Assembly (NCBI GenBank): GCA_949285665.1
Contig: CASDYC010000001.1
Span: forward strand, 706,107-770,106
DNA from: an uncultured bacterium
GTDB lineage: Bacteria; Bacillota_I; Bacilli_A; RFN20; CAG-826
Direction: 5' to 3'
Length of the DNA stretch: 64,000 nt
Position numbers and translations under genes: made by a program. Shown one piece after another: positions 41,829 to 54,280 of the stretch. Every line of letters starts with the position of its first letter. Positions within the stretch are counted from its first letter, which is position 1. Below the pieces are notes generated by a model that saw nothing but the letters and a program-made list of their open reading frames with translations, was not told where the DNA came from and did no database searches.

Positions 41829-42203
41829 GGGGAAGTACTGGTTTTCGACATAGGTACTGGTCTGGCTTAAATTGCAGTCGAGTGGTGACGTTATCACTAA
41901 AAAATAAATATCTGGCAACAGAAATTACGCTTACGCAGCTGCTTAATCTTAGCCTAATAATATAAGTCGTATTTAATACGAAGTTGCGTGTCTTATTATT
42001 TGTTTATCCTTAGACATTTAATAAGGCAAGTCTAATTAAGGATATATAAGTTTGATGATTATAAAGACTTATGAATATTTATAATCTAGTTGGTATGAAT
42101 TTGGTATGTTTATAATATCAATAAAATTAAAAATATGCCTAAACTGTAGAGATTTTTGTGGGACTACTTGTGGACCGGAGTTCAACTCTCCGCTTCTCCA
42201 CCA
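41829..42203 (+). ncRNA. ssrA: Transfer-messenger RNA (tmRNA)
   Basis: Rescues stalled ribosomes and tags the nascent chain. The 5' end GGGGAAGTACTGGTTTTCGA and the 3' end TTCAACTCTCCGCTTCTCC-ACCA form the tRNA-like domain; acceptor arm GGGGAAG pairs with CTTCTCC with one G-U. The reading frame at 41914-41946 encodes GNRNYAYAAA followed by TAA, a 10-residue proteolysis tag with an Ala-rich end. The genomic CCA is encoded. I placed the ends by pairing the acceptor stem. Confidence 0.95.
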
Positions 42204-42233
42204 TTTTATAACTAATATTTTGATACAAAGTAA

Positions 42234-42407
42234 GGGTATCAAAGTGAACAATATTTGCTCGAGAAATCGGGTTTTTTATTTGAACTTAGTTTTATTAGTT
42301 GGTGGTTATTAGTGCTCATCACCCTCGGCGGTATGTATTTATATGTCTATCCATATTATATGACTGCGAAGAGCAATATATATTTCGACGAAGCAAATAA
42401 ATCGTAA
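42234..42407 (+). pseudogene. C-terminal fragment of a DUF975-type membrane protein
   Basis: An open frame without a start codon begins after TAA at 42231 and ends in TAA at 42405. Its translation contains FLFELSFISWWLLVLITLGG followed by a PYYMTAKSNIYFDEANKS end, which matches the C-terminal end of DUF975 proteins (LSFIGW...LTLGIG...PY...A..Y). Only about 57 codons remain, and the N-terminal part is missing because the frame begins 30 nt after the tmRNA CCA. It looks like one side of a recombination junction. Frame and match were read by eye. Confidence 0.65.
42257..42281 (+). terminator. Possible ssrA terminator inside the DUF975 fragment
   Basis: CTCGA (42258-42262), GAAA tetraloop, TCGGG (42267-42271), then TTTTTT. 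The stem has one U-G pair. It lies 54 nt after the tmRNA CCA and within the coding fragment, so foreign sequence may have been recruited as the terminator. Confidence 0.5.
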
Positions 42408-42428
42408 ATAATAATCAAATATTATAAG

Positions 42429-42486
42429 ACTGTTATTATAATTGTATTATTTGACAAAAACTTACATTATTGTAACAGTTTTTTCT
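42429..42486. repeat. Imperfect 14-bp inverted repeat with T-run
   Basis: ACTGTTATTATAAT (42429-42442) mirrors ATTATTGTAACAGT (42466-42479), 12 of 14 pairing, followed by TTTTTTCTTT. It could be a weak terminator or an element end. It overlaps the end of the short minus-strand ORF. Confidence 0.4.
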
Positions 42487-42504
42487 TTGCTCACGTTTTT
42501 TCAT
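42436..42504 (-). CDS. Possible 22-residue peptide gene
   Basis: A minus-strand ORF, MKKREQRKNCYNNVSFCQII plus two residues. GAAAGGAG (42523-42516) lies 11 nt upstream, and a TATAAT is found further upstream near 42555. The combination of promoter-like and ribosome-site sequences before such a short frame suggests either a small basic peptide or the head of a truncated gene. No homologue is recognised. Confidence 0.28.
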   Translation of the reverse strand: MKKREQRKNCYNNVSFCQIIQL

Positions 42505-42636
42505 ACTTCAAATAGCTCCTTTCTAGTAGGCAAAGAAGGTGATTAAATTATAAAACAAAGAAAGAAAGCAAAATGAAAACAGTTAGGTTGCACTGAGTTT
42601 GTCAGTTAACTCATTTATCAAAAAAGAAAAAAACAC

Positions 42637-42668
42637 TTGTCAAAAATGTGCGGGGGGGGGGGTATAAT
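42637..42668 (+). promoter_or_regulatory. Promoter with G11 homopolymer spacer (possible phase switch)
   Basis: TTGTCA (42637-42642) and TATAAT (42663-42668) are separated by 20 nt, of which the last 11 are an unbroken run of G (42652-42662). This is exceptional in such an AT-rich sequence. Slippage by three G would restore the optimal 17-nt spacing. The UDG-like gene starts 5 or 8 nt after the -10 box (ATGs at 42674 and 42677). Confidence 0.6.
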
Positions 42669-42676
42669 TTTTAATG

Positions 42677-43236
42677 ATGAGCGGACCAAAAATTGAGTAT
42701 AGTTTTAATAGCCAATCTAACCTTGATAATAATACCAAAATATTAATTGTTGGCACTTTTACCAGTCCGTTAGGGATATATAATGGCTACTTTTATGGTG
42801 CCCAGCGTAATTGCGTGTATAAAAGATTAGATGAATTATTCAACACTGGAAATATCTTTCAAACTTTAAAGAAAAGATTAATAGAAACAAACAACAAAAA
42901 AGAAGTTGTTGAACAAATAAATAAAGAACTTAGTGAAAGAAATATTGCTTTTTTGATGTCGTTGAAGAATGCAAAAGGAAAATTCCGTGCAGTCCTTATG
43001 ATAAAGATCTTGAAGTTATTAGATTTGCTCTTGATACGTTTAAAGAAAAAAGTTGTTCACTCAAATTTATTATTTTTACTTCTAATACCGCAAAAAAATG
43101 GTTTATAGATAACGGATTTCAAAAATATTACGCTCTAAAAGAAACCAATCATGCTGTTTTAAATATGAGAGGCAAAAACAATATAGAAGATGTAAAAAAA
43201 TTATTATTTTTAAGTTCACTAATAAAGGAGGAATAA
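42677..43236 (+). pseudogene. UDG-superfamily DNA glycosylase-like gene, frameshifted
   Basis: The first half (MSGPKIEYSFNSQ... LIVGTFTSPLGIYNGYFYGA, RNCVYKRLDEL) matches the uracil/hypoxanthine DNA glycosylase superfamily pattern. After IAF at a T6 run (42949-42954) the frame is lost. Reading one base off continues DVVEECKRKIPCSPYDK, then FIIFTSNTAKKWFIDNGFQ, and ends LIKEE at 43236. One extra T (T7) would restore a protein of about 187 residues. This may be a true mutation, slippage or a sequencing error in the homopolymer. A second ATG at 42674 is also possible. Confidence 0.72.
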
Positions 43237-43239
43237 ATT

Positions 43240-44022
43240 ATGGGACTTATTAAAGGACTTATTAAAGGATATTTTAAGTTATTATCTAAGATATTTGGTT
43301 TTAAGCAAGAAGAACAAACACAAAATTATTATTCTAAAAATCCTGAGCTAGTAAGAACCGAAGAACAATTCAATAAAATAGTTGATTCGGTAAAAGCGTA
43401 TCTTGATGAAGACTATGAAAATATATATGGCGTATATGTTGCATATATTTATGAGCAAGATGGCGTTGAGTATAATCCTCGTGTTAATAATGACAATTAT
43501 TATATTTTAAACGATGCCATTACCGCAGCGGTTTTGGATAAAATTTTTGGTAGGCACGATTTATTTGATTTTGGTGATAATTTTACTAAAAATGAATTTC
43601 CTTCGATAATGTGGCATTACTATTACAGTGATTGGTATGTTCTTAAAGGCAACCCTATGCTTCTTTGGATTAAAAATTATAGTGAAAAATACCCAAATAT
43701 TAAAATTACCCATCCGATGCTTTGGAGTGTTAATGCCTTTTTAAAAAACATAGTGAAAGCAAATCAAAAAAAAGATGAAAATGAAGAATCTTGTATGATT
43801 AGAATTCGCAAATTGTTGCTCGATTATGTTAAAGACAATCCGCTTAACAAAATTTTATATGCATCAAATATAAATAAATTTGAGAGTAATTGGACTTTGT
43901 ATAATGATTATATTTTGCCTTATTATCGTTGTTCAAAAAATAACTATAACGAGATATTTTTTGGTAACAATTCTTCTTATGAATTATTATCTCTCCAAGA
44001 TATTCAAAACAATTTATATTAA
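43240..44022 (+). CDS. Hypothetical protein (260 aa) of the ssrA-linked cassette
   Basis: Unrecognised. AAGGAGG lies inside the end of the previous gene, 3 nt past whose stop this one begins, so they are an operon. The N-terminus MGLIKGLIKGYFKLLSKIFG is a short amphipathic, repeat-containing helix that could touch membranes. The rest is acidic and very rich in Tyr, Asn and Trp (for example MWHYYYSDWYVLKGN). No signal peptide or catalytic motif is evident. Codon choice (CGC, GCC, ACC, CCG) differs from flanking native genes. Confidence 0.75.
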   Translation: MGLIKGLIKGYFKLLSKIFGFKQEEQTQNYYSKNPELVRTEEQFNKIVDSVKAYLDEDYENIYGVYVAYIYEQDGVEYNPRVNNDNYYILNDAITAAVLDKIFGRHDLFDFGDNFTKNEFPSIMWHYYYSDWYVLKGNPMLLWIKNYSEKYPNIKITHPMLWSVNAFLKNIVKANQKKDENEESCMIRIRKLLLDYVKDNPLNKILYASNINKFESNWTLYNDYILPYYRCSKNNYNEIFFGNNSSYELLSLQDIQNNLY

Positions 44023-44042
44023 AAATTAGGTTTTATATTGTG

Positions 44043-44891
44043 ATGAATGCAAATAAACAATATTCTACGTCTTTGGTTCTACTAATTATTGCTGGGGTAT
44101 TTCTTTTCGCCGGCATAGTAAATTTGGTTACTATAATCTATATGCGACTAGCAATCATTGATTTTTGTATTGTTTTTATCTTGTTATTGCCTGGTATATA
44201 TTTACATACCAAGTCGAAAAATAATCACGACACCAATATAAAAGCAAAATTATCCGACTTTAAGCCACCGTTTCAAAACGTTTTCAAAAATGAACACGCT
44301 AGTAGTTCGAAAGGAAGAGCGATTCTAAACGCCTTTATTCAGATTGTTTTACCAACAATTGTTGTTTATAGTTTAGTTCTTGTTGACGCTATTATTGTCC
44401 TATTTCTTGTAGGTGCATTGTCATATATTTTAATATTGCCATTAGGAATTTTAGTTTTTCTATTTATTTTTGGTGCGTTCGGTATCATGGGTTTTGCTCA
44501 CGGATCTAAAAACACTCAATATTTAGAGATTGATGGTAAAATAGTAAAAATAAGTAAGCCAGGCCAAAATGGTGGTGCTGGGGTAGCCTTTTTATTATCG
44601 ATGTTTTGTTTCGTTTTTTGTGTTCCCATTTCGATTGTATCCTTCATTTTTAAAATAGTAAAAATAAGCGCTAGTGAGGAATATTGTAAGCAAGTAAATT
44701 CGTATAAAAATAATTCCTATTTGCGTTTTATGCTAGCGTTTATTGTTTCTTCAATTGTGTTATTAATTGCCTTTGTCATTTCTTTTGTTAACATTAATGT
44801 TTTAATGTTTGGCGAATCATTTGAGATTATTTGGCAAATGTTTACTGCTAGATTTAATGAAACTATGAGTGTTATTTCTAATTTCTTTTAG
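44043..44891 (+). CDS. Polytopic membrane protein (282 aa) of the ssrA-linked cassette
   Basis: Unrecognised. I use the ATG at 44043; a GTG just before is also in frame. Hydrophobic segments fall at about 12-32, 36-53, 100-125, 127-150, 182-205 and 232-256. A Lys/His-rich cytoplasmic-looking loop (55-95) and a Gly-rich stretch (KISKPGQNGGAGVAFLL) stand out. It is 20 nt downstream of the 260-aa gene and shares its atypical codon use. Function unknown; it is the last intact gene of the cassette. Confidence 0.75.
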   Translation: MNANKQYSTSLVLLIIAGVFLFAGIVNLVTIIYMRLAIIDFCIVFILLLPGIYLHTKSKNNHDTNIKAKLSDFKPPFQNVFKNEHASSSKGRAILNAFIQIVLPTIVVYSLVLVDAIIVLFLVGALSYILILPLGILVFLFIFGAFGIMGFAHGSKNTQYLEIDGKIVKISKPGQNGGAGVAFLLSMFCFVFCVPISIVSFIFKIVKISASEEYCKQVNSYKNNSYLRFMLAFIVSSIVLLIAFVISFVNINVLMFGESFEIIWQMFTARFNETMSVISNFF

Positions 44892-44956
44892 TTATTAGTA
44901 GTTTATTAACCGATATCAAATCATTTTGTTAATTATGAAAGTTTTGAGTTTAGATA

Positions 44957-45200
44957 GCTAAAAATAAATAATAACAAGAACAGTAAGGGAATTATTCATG
45001 ACCATATGGAAGGAACAAAAGGTGTGGAAGCAGTTGTGATGTACATCTATCTTGCATTAAAAGGTGTTTCAAAAGAAAAAATAAGAAAGAGAATAGTTAA
45101 TTAACGTTATTCAATAATAGAAACATTAGATTTTGATGATTTAGTTAAACGTCATAAATTTCCTGAAATATGTTAAAAATCTGTACCGTAGCTTTCTATT
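44957..45200 (+). pseudogene. ADP-ribosylglycohydrolase remnant
   Basis: A frame without a usable start reads NNKNSKGIIHDHMEGTKGVE, then AVVMYIYLALKGVSKEKI, a TAA, then RYSIIETLDFDDLVKRHKFP, EIC-stop-KSVP-stop. This follows the C-terminal half of ADP-ribosylglycohydrolases (SHNHPEG.KGA.A.A..IFLA, then C-Q-x-S-V-P-Q-A), with the two Gln positions now TAA and TAG, as expected from C-to-T decay. The N-terminal half is absent. Read by eye; a profile search would confirm. Confidence 0.6.
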
Positions 45201-45213
45201 GGTTTTAATTGTA

Positions 45214-51928: not shown

Positions 51929-54280
51929 ATGAAAAAATTAAACGCATCAATCTTACTATTAGCTAGTTTATTAATAACTAGCTGTGATAATGTTAACGAT
52001 TTATCTAGTAGTAGTTCTAACACTAGTAATTCAACATTAACAACAACAACTACAACAACTACAACAACAACAACTACAACAAGTCATGTAAATGAATCTC
52101 TTACAATTGATGAATTATTTTCAATTTTAAAAGAAGTTGGAAAAAGCGAATCGTTTCAAGTTACTTTTTCTAATGATGATATTTCTTCTGATGTAATTTA
52201 TGATTCAAGTTATTATTTAAATAAAACAACAGAAGAAGGAATTATTATGATTAATAATTATAATTCTTCTTCAATTTATGAAAAGTTAGGCTATCATTTC
52301 ACTTTTAAAAATAATGAAGTAAAAGTTGGAAGTATCGCAACTGCATATGACGAAAATTATAATGAAACAACAGTTTTAAGTATAAAAGATGTTAATCCAT
52401 TAAAAGTATTTAATGACAATTTAATTAATGAAATTAATGACTTTGAAGAAGTTAGTGATGCCGGAAATGGTGAAATAATTATAAATAATTTCACCACATT
52501 AAATGTATTTTTAGAATTTTTAGGAATTGCAAATGATTATGAAAATATCATTACAAATCTTTCAGCTGGATTATATTTTAAACAAGTAAATCAAGGTGAA
52601 TTAGTTTTTGGATTTTTAACTTATGATGATGATTTTAATTTAGTTAAAATAGATGCTGGAGAAGGTGTTATAAAATATCAAAATCCAGAAAAAAATGAAG
52701 AATTAGCTAAGTTTTCTAATGAATTTGAAATTCCCGGAGAAGAATTAAATAATTTAGCATTTTCTATTTATTCAGATGGAGAATATAATACAAAAACAAC
52801 AATAACTCAGTTTGAAAATGATAATGCGGTATTAAGTCAAACAATTAATTTTGATGTTTCAAGTTCTTATTACCGATTATATAGTGATAATTTAAATGGA
52901 ATGCCAACAGATGAGCTATATGTTGCAGATGAAAATGGAACTGCAATTACTCAATACATTGATTATGAAAATAAATTAGTAGAAGAAAGTGTTGGTCAAT
53001 CTTTAGGATTAGGGATGGATATTCCACTTGCTCTTTTAGTAGCAAGCCAAGATTTAGATACAATGGGATTTAGATCAACTTCCGAAAACACATATAAATA
53101 CTGGGGGGCTGATGCTCTTACAATTGCAAGTGCATTATCAGGATTAAGTTTTAATATGACCTTAGATTCACTAACTTTAGAAACTGTTAATAATAAAGCT
53201 AGTAAATTAACTTTAACTTCAACTGTTAGTGAATATGAAGATATGGGTGGTGAAGTAATAAAAGGATATACAGAAATAGTTATTGAATTAAATGACCATG
53301 CAAAAGCAAAACCTGAAATTAAACCTTATGAAACAACTGCAGAAACTCAAGAAATAAAGACTATTTTAGATAATTTTGAAAGTGCTAGAAATTATGTCAT
53401 TGAAGCACTTACTAATACTGAAGATAGTTATGTTAAATATTTTGTTACGGACGATGCAATTGTTGATATCTCAGTCGATGTTATGGGAGATAAAAATATT
53501 TACGGATATGTAAATAAGGAAAATGGTTATAGTGATTTTATGTATGTAAATAATAAACCTATTCCAACTGCACCATTAATAGAAGGAAGTATTTCTGATT
53601 TATTAAAAATAGATGCTGCTCCAGAATTATTTGAATTAAATGAAGATAAAACTGAATTAAAAATTAGAAATTATGTAAAAGGAGCCACAGATCATATAAT
53701 TCTTGGACCAGATACTGGATTAGAAATTGTTGAAAATACATTTACTTATCAATTAAAAAATGGAACTATCAGTGGGATTAAATACACTGGAAGTTTTGCA
53801 GCATTTGGAATTGTTGGAGAAGCTGAATTTAAAATAACATATGCGAATTCAGCTGAAGAATTAGGTGGTAGTGAATTAGTTAATATATTAAATGACTTAA
53901 AAGGTATGTCTTCTGATTGGAGTGAACCAACTAACTTTATGACAATACCTTCTGTATATGCATTATTAGTTAAAATGTATGGAGAAGAAGTAGCTTCTGA
54001 AATTCCATATTTATATAATAAAGATTTCTATTTAGGCATGGGCACAAGTACAATTTCTGATGTTCTTCCAGATGGTAGTGAAGGCGATATATATTCAATA
54101 ACATTATTAAAATTTAATGGTAATTTAGAAGATACTGATAATTATTTTGGAAGATATAGAGATTTATTAGTTGAAAAAGGTTATGAATATGATGAAGAAT
54201 CTGACAGTTATATTAAAGGTATTGTATCAATAACTGTTGGTAGCAATTATGGAGAAGGAATAACTTTTAGAAAAGTATAA
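51929..54280 (+). CDS. Large surface lipoprotein with poly-Thr linker
   Basis: 783 residues, not recognised beyond the N-terminus. Signal peptide MKKLNASILLLASLLITSC has lipobox ITSC, followed by a Ser-rich stretch and a run of 14 threonines (codons at 52040-52081, ACA/ACT), a flexible cell-surface linker. The remainder is Asp/Glu/Thr-rich, with two halves of alternating beta-rich-looking sequence and no known motif. A perfect TCAGGAGGTGA ribosome site suggests high expression. Followed by a strong terminator. Confidence 0.85.
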   Translation: MKKLNASILLLASLLITSCDNVNDLSSSSSNTSNSTLTTTTTTTTTTTTTTSHVNESLTIDELFSILKEVGKSESFQVTFSNDDISSDVIYDSSYYLNKTTEEGIIMINNYNSSSIYEKLGYHFTFKNNEVKVGSIATAYDENYNETTVLSIKDVNPLKVFNDNLINEINDFEEVSDAGNGEIIINNFTTLNVFLEFLGIANDYENIITNLSAGLYFKQVNQGELVFGFLTYDDDFNLVKIDAGEGVIKYQNPEKNEELAKFSNEFEIPGEELNNLAFSIYSDGEYNTKTTITQFENDNAVLSQTINFDVSSSYYRLYSDNLNGMPTDELYVADENGTAITQYIDYENKLVEESVGQSLGLGMDIPLALLVASQDLDTMGFRSTSENTYKYWGADALTIASALSGLSFNMTLDSLTLETVNNKASKLTLTSTVSEYEDMGGEVIKGYTEIVIELNDHAKAKPEIKPYETTAETQEIKTILDNFESARNYVIEALTNTEDSYVKYFVTDDAIVDISVDVMGDKNIYGYVNKENGYSDFMYVNNKPIPTAPLIEGSISDLLKIDAAPELFELNEDKTELKIRNYVKGATDHIILGPDTGLEIVENTFTYQLKNGTISGIKYTGSFAAFGIVGEAEFKITYANSAEELGGSELVNILNDLKGMSSDWSEPTNFMTIPSVYALLVKMYGEEVASEIPYLYNKDFYLGMGTSTISDVLPDGSEGDIYSITLLKFNGNLEDTDNYFGRYRDLLVEKGYEYDEESDSYIKGIVSITVGSNYGEGITFRKV
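52040..52081 (+). repeat. ACA/ACT trinucleotide tract encoding 14 Thr
   Basis: Fourteen consecutive Thr codons, 11 ACA and 3 ACT, in the lipoprotein just after its Ser/Asn segment. In-frame triplet tracts can change length by slippage and so alter the spacer between anchor and domain without breaking the frame. Confidence 0.85.

Follow-up and report, generated by a model that had tools for sequence, protein, structure and literature searches.

The window considered here is a stretch of 64,000 nucleotides from a genome of 1.03 Mb in six contigs, and its surroundings consist of housekeeping genes around dnaA and gyrB (gene names by reading of the frames). Behind the tmRNA gene, on the forward strand, lies a cassette of three genes in the order UDG-like gene, ORF2 and ORF3 (Table 1). 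The UDG-like gene and ORF2 are separated by 3 nt, and ORF2 and ORF3 by 17-20 nt, with an alternative GTG start for ORF3 at 44040 that would give a protein of 283 aa. An earlier note on this DNA, made from the letters alone, had described tightly packed genes with gaps of 3 and 20 nt and frames of 260 and 282 aa for ORF2 and ORF3; the packing and both frames were recovered, with 282 or 283 aa for ORF3 according to the start chosen. The atypical codon use attributed to the cassette was also borne out. The codon log-likelihood of the four cassette pieces ranged from -0.87 to -1.12 per codon, versus -0.54 to -0.82 for 30 other genes of the window, picked by hand as controls, and their GC3 ranged from 0.179 to 0.261, versus 0.065 to 0.183 in the same controls. 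Overlap with the host range is slight and confined to the cassette piece with the lowest GC3, the 3' UDG half.

Table 1. Features of the cassette and its surroundings, in window coordinates. G056 is the genome carrying the other copy.
Feature	Position	Strand	Remarks
tmRNA gene	41829..42203	+	upstream of the block, outside it
Transferred block	42626..45209	+	blastn match to G056 L011:13776-16357; flanks unrelated
-35 box, TTGTCA	42637..42642	+	from sequence; identical in G056
G11 tract in the -35/-10 spacer	42652..42662	+	20-nt spacer; G10 and 19 nt in G056
-10 box, TATAAT	42663..42668	+	from sequence; same in G056
UDG-superfamily glycosylase-like gene	42674..43236	+	frameshifted near 42950; TIGR04274 match of the intact G056 copy
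Shine-Dalgarno-like AGGAGG of ORF2	43226..43231	+	within the end of the UDG gene; from sequence
ORF2	43240..44022	+	260 aa; no predicted TM segment; 27 Tyr and 5 Trp; no known family
ORF3	44043..44891	+	polytopic membrane protein, 282 aa; no known family
Decayed ADP-ribosylglycohydrolase-like remnant	44990..45209	+	alignment to the G056 piece

The UDG-like gene is not a single open frame in the window, so that the earlier description of a three-gene cassette with a UDG-like protein holds for the cassette but not for its first gene as read here. The first frame extends from 42674 to 43108, and the conserved continuation runs in another frame to 43236, the break corresponding to a T run near 42950. 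In G056, which belongs to another genus of the same family (contig CASDXP010000002.1), the gene is intact and encodes 188 aa. As the first gene is broken in the assembly, the window copy may be decaying, variably read or the product of an assembly error. Its ATG lies only 5 nt past the -10 box, and the gene is therefore probably leaderless.

The family nearest to the intact copy was TIGR04274 (DNA-deoxyinosine, or hypoxanthine, glycosylase; E 1.2e-8), the curated cut-off of which (80 bits) was not reached (35.2 bits). The cassette protein resembles this family in its N-terminal GT/GS motif and in a YG-x-PRN stretch that includes the aligned Asn of the family motif, which we take to be catalytic, and differs from it in its score and in lacking the C-terminal S-T-S-x-A-N stretch. 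In a weak match (E 0.46), Asn46 of the intact copy aligned with Asn39 of 2l3f, and its equivalent is kept in 18 of 18 aligned relatives. The S-T-S-x-A-N stretch is present in 13 of these 18 relatives, nearly so in three more and absent from the other two. On these sequence features, we call the protein a divergent member of the UDG superfamily rather than a deoxyinosine glycosylase. UDG-like genes were identified in 21 further genomes among 193 relatives, at 29-41% identity, and no match to ORF2 was found in these 21 genomes. A match of the UDG protein to phrog_19738, for which no function is assigned, was set aside as weak (E 0.0027).

The N-terminal stretch of ORF2 is amphipathic, with a moment of up to 0.52 in the window copy and a weaker one (0.19-0.38) in the G056 copy, consistent, together with the lack of a predicted TM segment, with the soluble protein with an amphipathic N-terminus proposed earlier. 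ORF3 contains four hydrophobic blocks, two of which (52 and 63 residues) are long enough for two helices each, and a count of about six helices appears likely from these blocks and a low-confidence model; of the six-helix membrane protein of the earlier note, the polytopic nature is supported, the number six being a probable count from the blocks and the model. Structure models built from two-row alignments had a mean pLDDT of 35.7 for ORF2 and 49.1 for ORF3, too poor for use. Searches of Pfam, NCBIfam, PADLOC and PHROGs returned chance-level or weak matches only for ORF2 and ORF3, and the profile searches assigned neither of them to a housekeeping family; a clear assignment of that kind is what the earlier note had named as counting against its proposal. 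In PADLOC-DB 2.0.0, the window ORF2 and ORF3 had no match, the intact UDG protein, ORF2 and ORF3 of G056 had none at E 1, and the two half-genes of the window UDG gave E values of 0.007 and 0.021 (13-14 bits). The best of these weak matches was that of window ORF2 to NF045974 (CD1108 mobile element protein), with an E value of 0.0036 and 17.1 bits, against a cut-off of 100, and this assignment, which was not reproduced by G056 ORF2, was rejected; Pfam matches of the cassette proteins at E 0.5-0.8 were likewise set aside as weak. The operon context of ORF2 and ORF3 is clear, and both represent protein families that have no match in any library that was searched.

All three genes are intact in G056, where order, gaps and promoter are as in the window. 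Among the 193 relatives, the search with ORF2 recovered this close relative and one weak match, in G189 (E 4e-4 over 86 aa), which was set aside. A scan of the genome collection with two exact peptide patterns, a procedure that detects close relatives only, also yielded one relative, and a two-row ORF2 profile found just the two copies among 279 genomes of the order. ORF3 gave the same two copies among these 279 genomes, plus one weak local match in G125 (E 6e-4), which has an internal stop, overlaps a 336-aa frame unrelated by eye and was rejected; the same two copies were found among 296 genomes of the class. No match was obtained in phage and plasmid collections, searched with ORF2 only, and no relatives of ORF2 or ORF3 were found in viral contigs. 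The three genes thus occur together in one other genome, a favourable but thin answer to the check for co-occurrence that had been suggested. A limited literature search found no description of the cassette or of a set of poly-G promoters in such bacteria.

What the window has in common with this distant relative is one block, which comprises the three genes, their promoter and a dead ADP-ribosylglycohydrolase-like fragment. The block, which starts 11 nt upstream of the -35 box, is 2.58 kb long and 86.1% identical between the two genomes by blastn, over 2603 columns. When the 64-kb window was compared with 35 kb of G056, the sole further match was 38 nt long, and the block is therefore discrete. 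The DnaB proteins of the two genomes are only 37% identical while the DNA of the block is 86% identical, and we conclude that it moved horizontally. Likewise, dS was 1.47 for DnaB versus 0.38-0.47 for the cassette, a large gap measured against one housekeeping gene as the yardstick of host divergence. The dN/dS ratios were 0.18 and 0.20 for the UDG halves, 0.25 for ORF2 and 0.18 for ORF3, indicating purifying selection that acted on all three genes during most of the period since the two copies separated. Selection in both UDG halves implies that the window frameshift is recent or not real. The GC3 of the cassette in G056 (0.24-0.30) falls within the range of eight other genes of that genome (0.20-0.30; seven island neighbours and DnaB). 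Because it fits the G056 genes and exceeds that of the window genes, the donor would have had a G056-like composition, with the window genome as the recipient. We consider a mobile block with joint selection on its genes to be highly probable.

In G056, the ADP-ribosylglycohydrolase-like piece is an 80-aa frame with a match to PF03747 (E 0.0012, 19 bits; cut-off 26.2), whereas the window remnant has no PF03747 match of its own and is named solely by alignment to the G056 piece. No PF03747 match above the cut-off was found in either genome, and the piece had probably already been truncated beside the operon before the transfer. Inspection by eye of the listed frames, which had a minimum length of 80 to 150 aa, revealed no recombinase or mobile-element gene, and the ends of the block carry no convincing terminal repeats.

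From the end of the tmRNA gene at 42203 to the first cassette ATG there are 470 nt. The location of the cassette by the tmRNA end, mentioned in the earlier note, is correct for the window, but the link with ssrA is not shared with G056, as a tRNA/tmRNA scan of three G056 loci detected none. Searched for in the window with up to three mismatches, a 23-nt stretch from the tmRNA 3' end gave no second copy. Integration at ssrA was thus rejected, on the basis of the lack of a tmRNA 3'-end repeat, of a recombinase recognizable by eye in the listed frames and of a tRNA or tmRNA beside the G056 copy. The approximately 420 nt between the tmRNA gene and the block (42204-42625) contain no clear gene; the small frames there resemble, by eye, remnants of membrane proteins.

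The promoter of the cassette has the structure TTGTCA-9 nt-G11-TATAAT, and both boxes and the 9-nt distance are conserved in G056. The -10 box contains a TAA (42665-42667) that shares the reading frame of the UDG start. The tract therefore cannot shift the UDG reading frame, and translational switching was rejected. It can act through the length of the -35/-10 spacer, which is 20 nt in the window versus 19 nt in G056. The possible phase switch suggested in the earlier note corresponds to this tract and is supported, with the wider promoter class described below, more strongly than its author could have known. The porA promoter of Neisseria meningitidis similarly carries a poly-G tract between the -35 and -10 boxes, with 11 G in one strain and variants of 9 and 10 G (excerpt of PMC3639595). 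What the excerpt describes for porA is the measured expression of a single surface porin in a pathogen; the present case, seen at the sequence level, is that of an operon that moved horizontally and begins with a glycosylase-fold gene, and poly-G promoters precede many unrelated genes of an uncultured order. The switching mechanism is, with porA, already known elsewhere. From the architecture and this analogy, the cassette promoter is likely to be switched by slippage in the manner of porA.

Promoters of the same architecture are present in several families of the order. The exact pattern G8-TATAAT was found at 23 sites in 15 of the 193 relatives, versus none for the reversed control, and TTGACA-N9-G6 at 69 sites in 33 of the 193 genomes (control, 1), a count from which the window promoter, with TTGTCA, is excluded. 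The latter pattern was absent from 22 genomes sharing only the class. Two exact poly-G promoter patterns had no match in viral contigs. A search of 56 relatives for G runs as such, made so as not to favour sites with boxes, yielded 88 runs of at least nine G, in 29 genomes, each of which was read. Promoter spacers, defined as 14-22 nt long with no more than two mismatches in the two boxes together, accounted for 38 of the 88, versus 175 of 17,600 random places in the same loci (1%); these limits were chosen with earlier sites already known, and the 88 include some of those sites. None of the other 50 runs, tested as C runs, lay in a promoter spacer. These 50 comprised 18 runs inside long frames and 32 between genes, indicating that the tracts are not all promoters. 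A frame of at least 60 aa started within 150 nt of 31 of the 38 spacer runs, versus 19 of the 50 others. Comparison of 136 G-run sites gave six pairs with similar flanks and downstream DNA, five of them with both boxes, and four of these five orthologous promoter pairs, including that of the cassette, differ by exactly one G with the boxes kept. The products behind the poly-G promoters were membrane or exported proteins in 25 of 31 cases, versus 59 of 111 control frames (Fisher p 0.007). This test is crude: as controls it took frames of at least 150 aa from the same loci, irrespective of strand, and it counts among the 25 the frameshifted window UDG, which has an out-of-frame tail that scores as hydrophobic.

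Several individual sites are worth recording. Two orthologous exported proteins (MSKKKYIAILPG...) of G150 and G139, at loci L061 and L063, lie behind poly-G promoters of G8 and G9, respectively, and form a clean pair for slippage. Clusters of G9-G10 runs within 1-3 kb occur at L166 (G015:C1:143050-146297) and L150 (G122:C52:5297-8315), some of the runs being inside long frames and without promoter boxes; these clusters perhaps reflect phase variation of the coding type, apart from the promoter class. The window genome contains one other run of at least eight G only. At L002:1501-1509 (contig position 688101, outside the window), TTGAAA-10 nt-G9-TAAAAT was found on the minus strand, with no frame of at least 60 aa within 150 nt downstream and a frame resembling ribosomal protein L31 (by eye) that begins about 340 nt on.

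The genes upstream of the block in G056 include HipA_C, Fic, PD-(D/E)XK, GIY-YIG, AIPR and HTH genes, together with a type II restriction enzyme and a cytosine methyltransferase, the best PADLOC models of the latter being DruM2/DruM followed by MTase_II. An AAA_14/DUF4143 protein is encoded downstream. Several of these neighbours match PADLOC models, some of which are merely candidate (PDC) families, and the AIPR protein and a 752-aa protein had no match to the PADLOC models. From this gene content, we read the surroundings of the G056 block as a defence island; the neighbourhood with defence genes for which a check had been proposed was thus found, in one genome. The window copy has no defence-gene neighbours, the block lying among housekeeping genes with no island. 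At L011:9662-13077 of G056, the AIPR gene overlaps that of the 752-aa protein (GHKL-type ATPase-like by eye, with chance-level Pfam matches only), immediately before the HTH gene and cassette, and the two are a possible two-gene defence unit. Elsewhere in the window, positions 51929-54280 encode a lipoprotein-like protein of 783 aa, in which 14 consecutive threonines begin at residue 38.

According to the excerpt of PMC11078745, Brig1 is an anti-phage DNA glycosylase related to uracil-DNA glycosylases that excises glucosylated cytosine from T-even phage DNA; many of its homologues are located in putative defence islands, and brig1 and a homologue adjoin an ADP-ribosylglycohydrolase gene. Like Brig1 in this description, the cassette protein is related to uracil-DNA glycosylases; a decayed ADP-ribosylglycohydrolase-like remnant lies beside the cassette in both copies, and defence genes adjoin the G056 copy only. 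It differs from Brig1 as described there in that its protein is a divergent one of 188 aa, nearest to TIGR04274, and is accompanied by ORF2 and ORF3. The ADP-ribosylglycohydrolase-like remnant may be taken as a lead, by analogy.

Taken as a whole, the locus may be an operon of three genes that was acquired horizontally, has a phase-variable promoter and, as the weaker part of this reading, acts as an anti-phage or conflict module; we find the case for and against the reading evenly balanced. Slippage of the G tract would alter the -35/-10 spacing and hence transcription, such that the on/off state of the operon would vary between cells, as for porA. The divergent UDG-fold glycosylase would attack unusual bases of incoming DNA, ORF2 would act as a membrane-touching partner through its amphipathic N-terminus, and ORF3 would be the membrane component, as an effector, an anchor or a sensor; switching would limit the cost of the operon to the host. 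The cassette is represented by two instances, its UDG gene is broken in the window and neither ORF2 nor ORF3 is tied to a known defence mechanism, and for these reasons the anti-phage or conflict function itself is put forward tentatively, as the favoured guess but at somewhat less than even odds. No profile links the UDG protein (halves or intact), ORF2 or ORF3 to a defence family. The most far-reaching proposal, a new type of anti-phage operon kept on or off cell by cell by a slippable poly-G promoter and moving with this promoter between genera, within an order-wide set of such promoters, is doubtful.

The main rival to defence is a role at the surface, because the genes behind these poly-G promoters mostly encode membrane or exported proteins. 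ORF3 and ORF2 might form a phase-variable module altering the surface or envelope, evading phage adsorption or host immunity, with the UDG-like protein as a passenger. The enrichment of the promoter class for membrane and exported products (25/31 versus 59/111) and the polytopic nature of ORF3 would fit such a module, but the first gene behind the switch has a glycosylase fold, with both halves under selection, the G056 block lies beside defence genes and ORF2 has no predicted TM segment; we consider it rather unlikely. The cassette might, alternatively, be a chance group of genes moved by recombination, with an ordinary repair glycosylase now decaying and no joint function. This would account for the presence of ORF2 in only 2 of 279 genomes of the order, the broken UDG gene of the window, the decay of the ADP-ribosylglycohydrolase-like fragment in both copies, and the lack of a mobile-element gene recognizable by eye and of convincing terminal repeats. 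However, the dN/dS values of 0.18-0.25 in all three genes, the identical gaps and the conserved promoter indicate that the genes were maintained jointly during most of the period since the split; we consider a chance group improbable.

It is more improbable still that the G tract is not a switch at all, being instead a G-rich spacer of other purpose or a tract whose length was altered by sequencing error. Assemblies are prone to errors at homopolymers, and the frameshift in the T run close by may be one, but the runs are not placed at random (38 of 88 in spacers, on one strand only), the architecture recurs across several families of the order, and porA provides a precedent (excerpt of PMC3639595).

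If the reading as a phase-variable, horizontally acquired operon is correct, the cassette would be a concrete and testable case of a defence-like operon carrying its own contingency switch when it moves. In the uncultured, small-genome order to which it belongs, moreover, many membrane and exported proteins would be varied by means of poly-G promoters, and such variation could be checked directly in existing metagenome reads.
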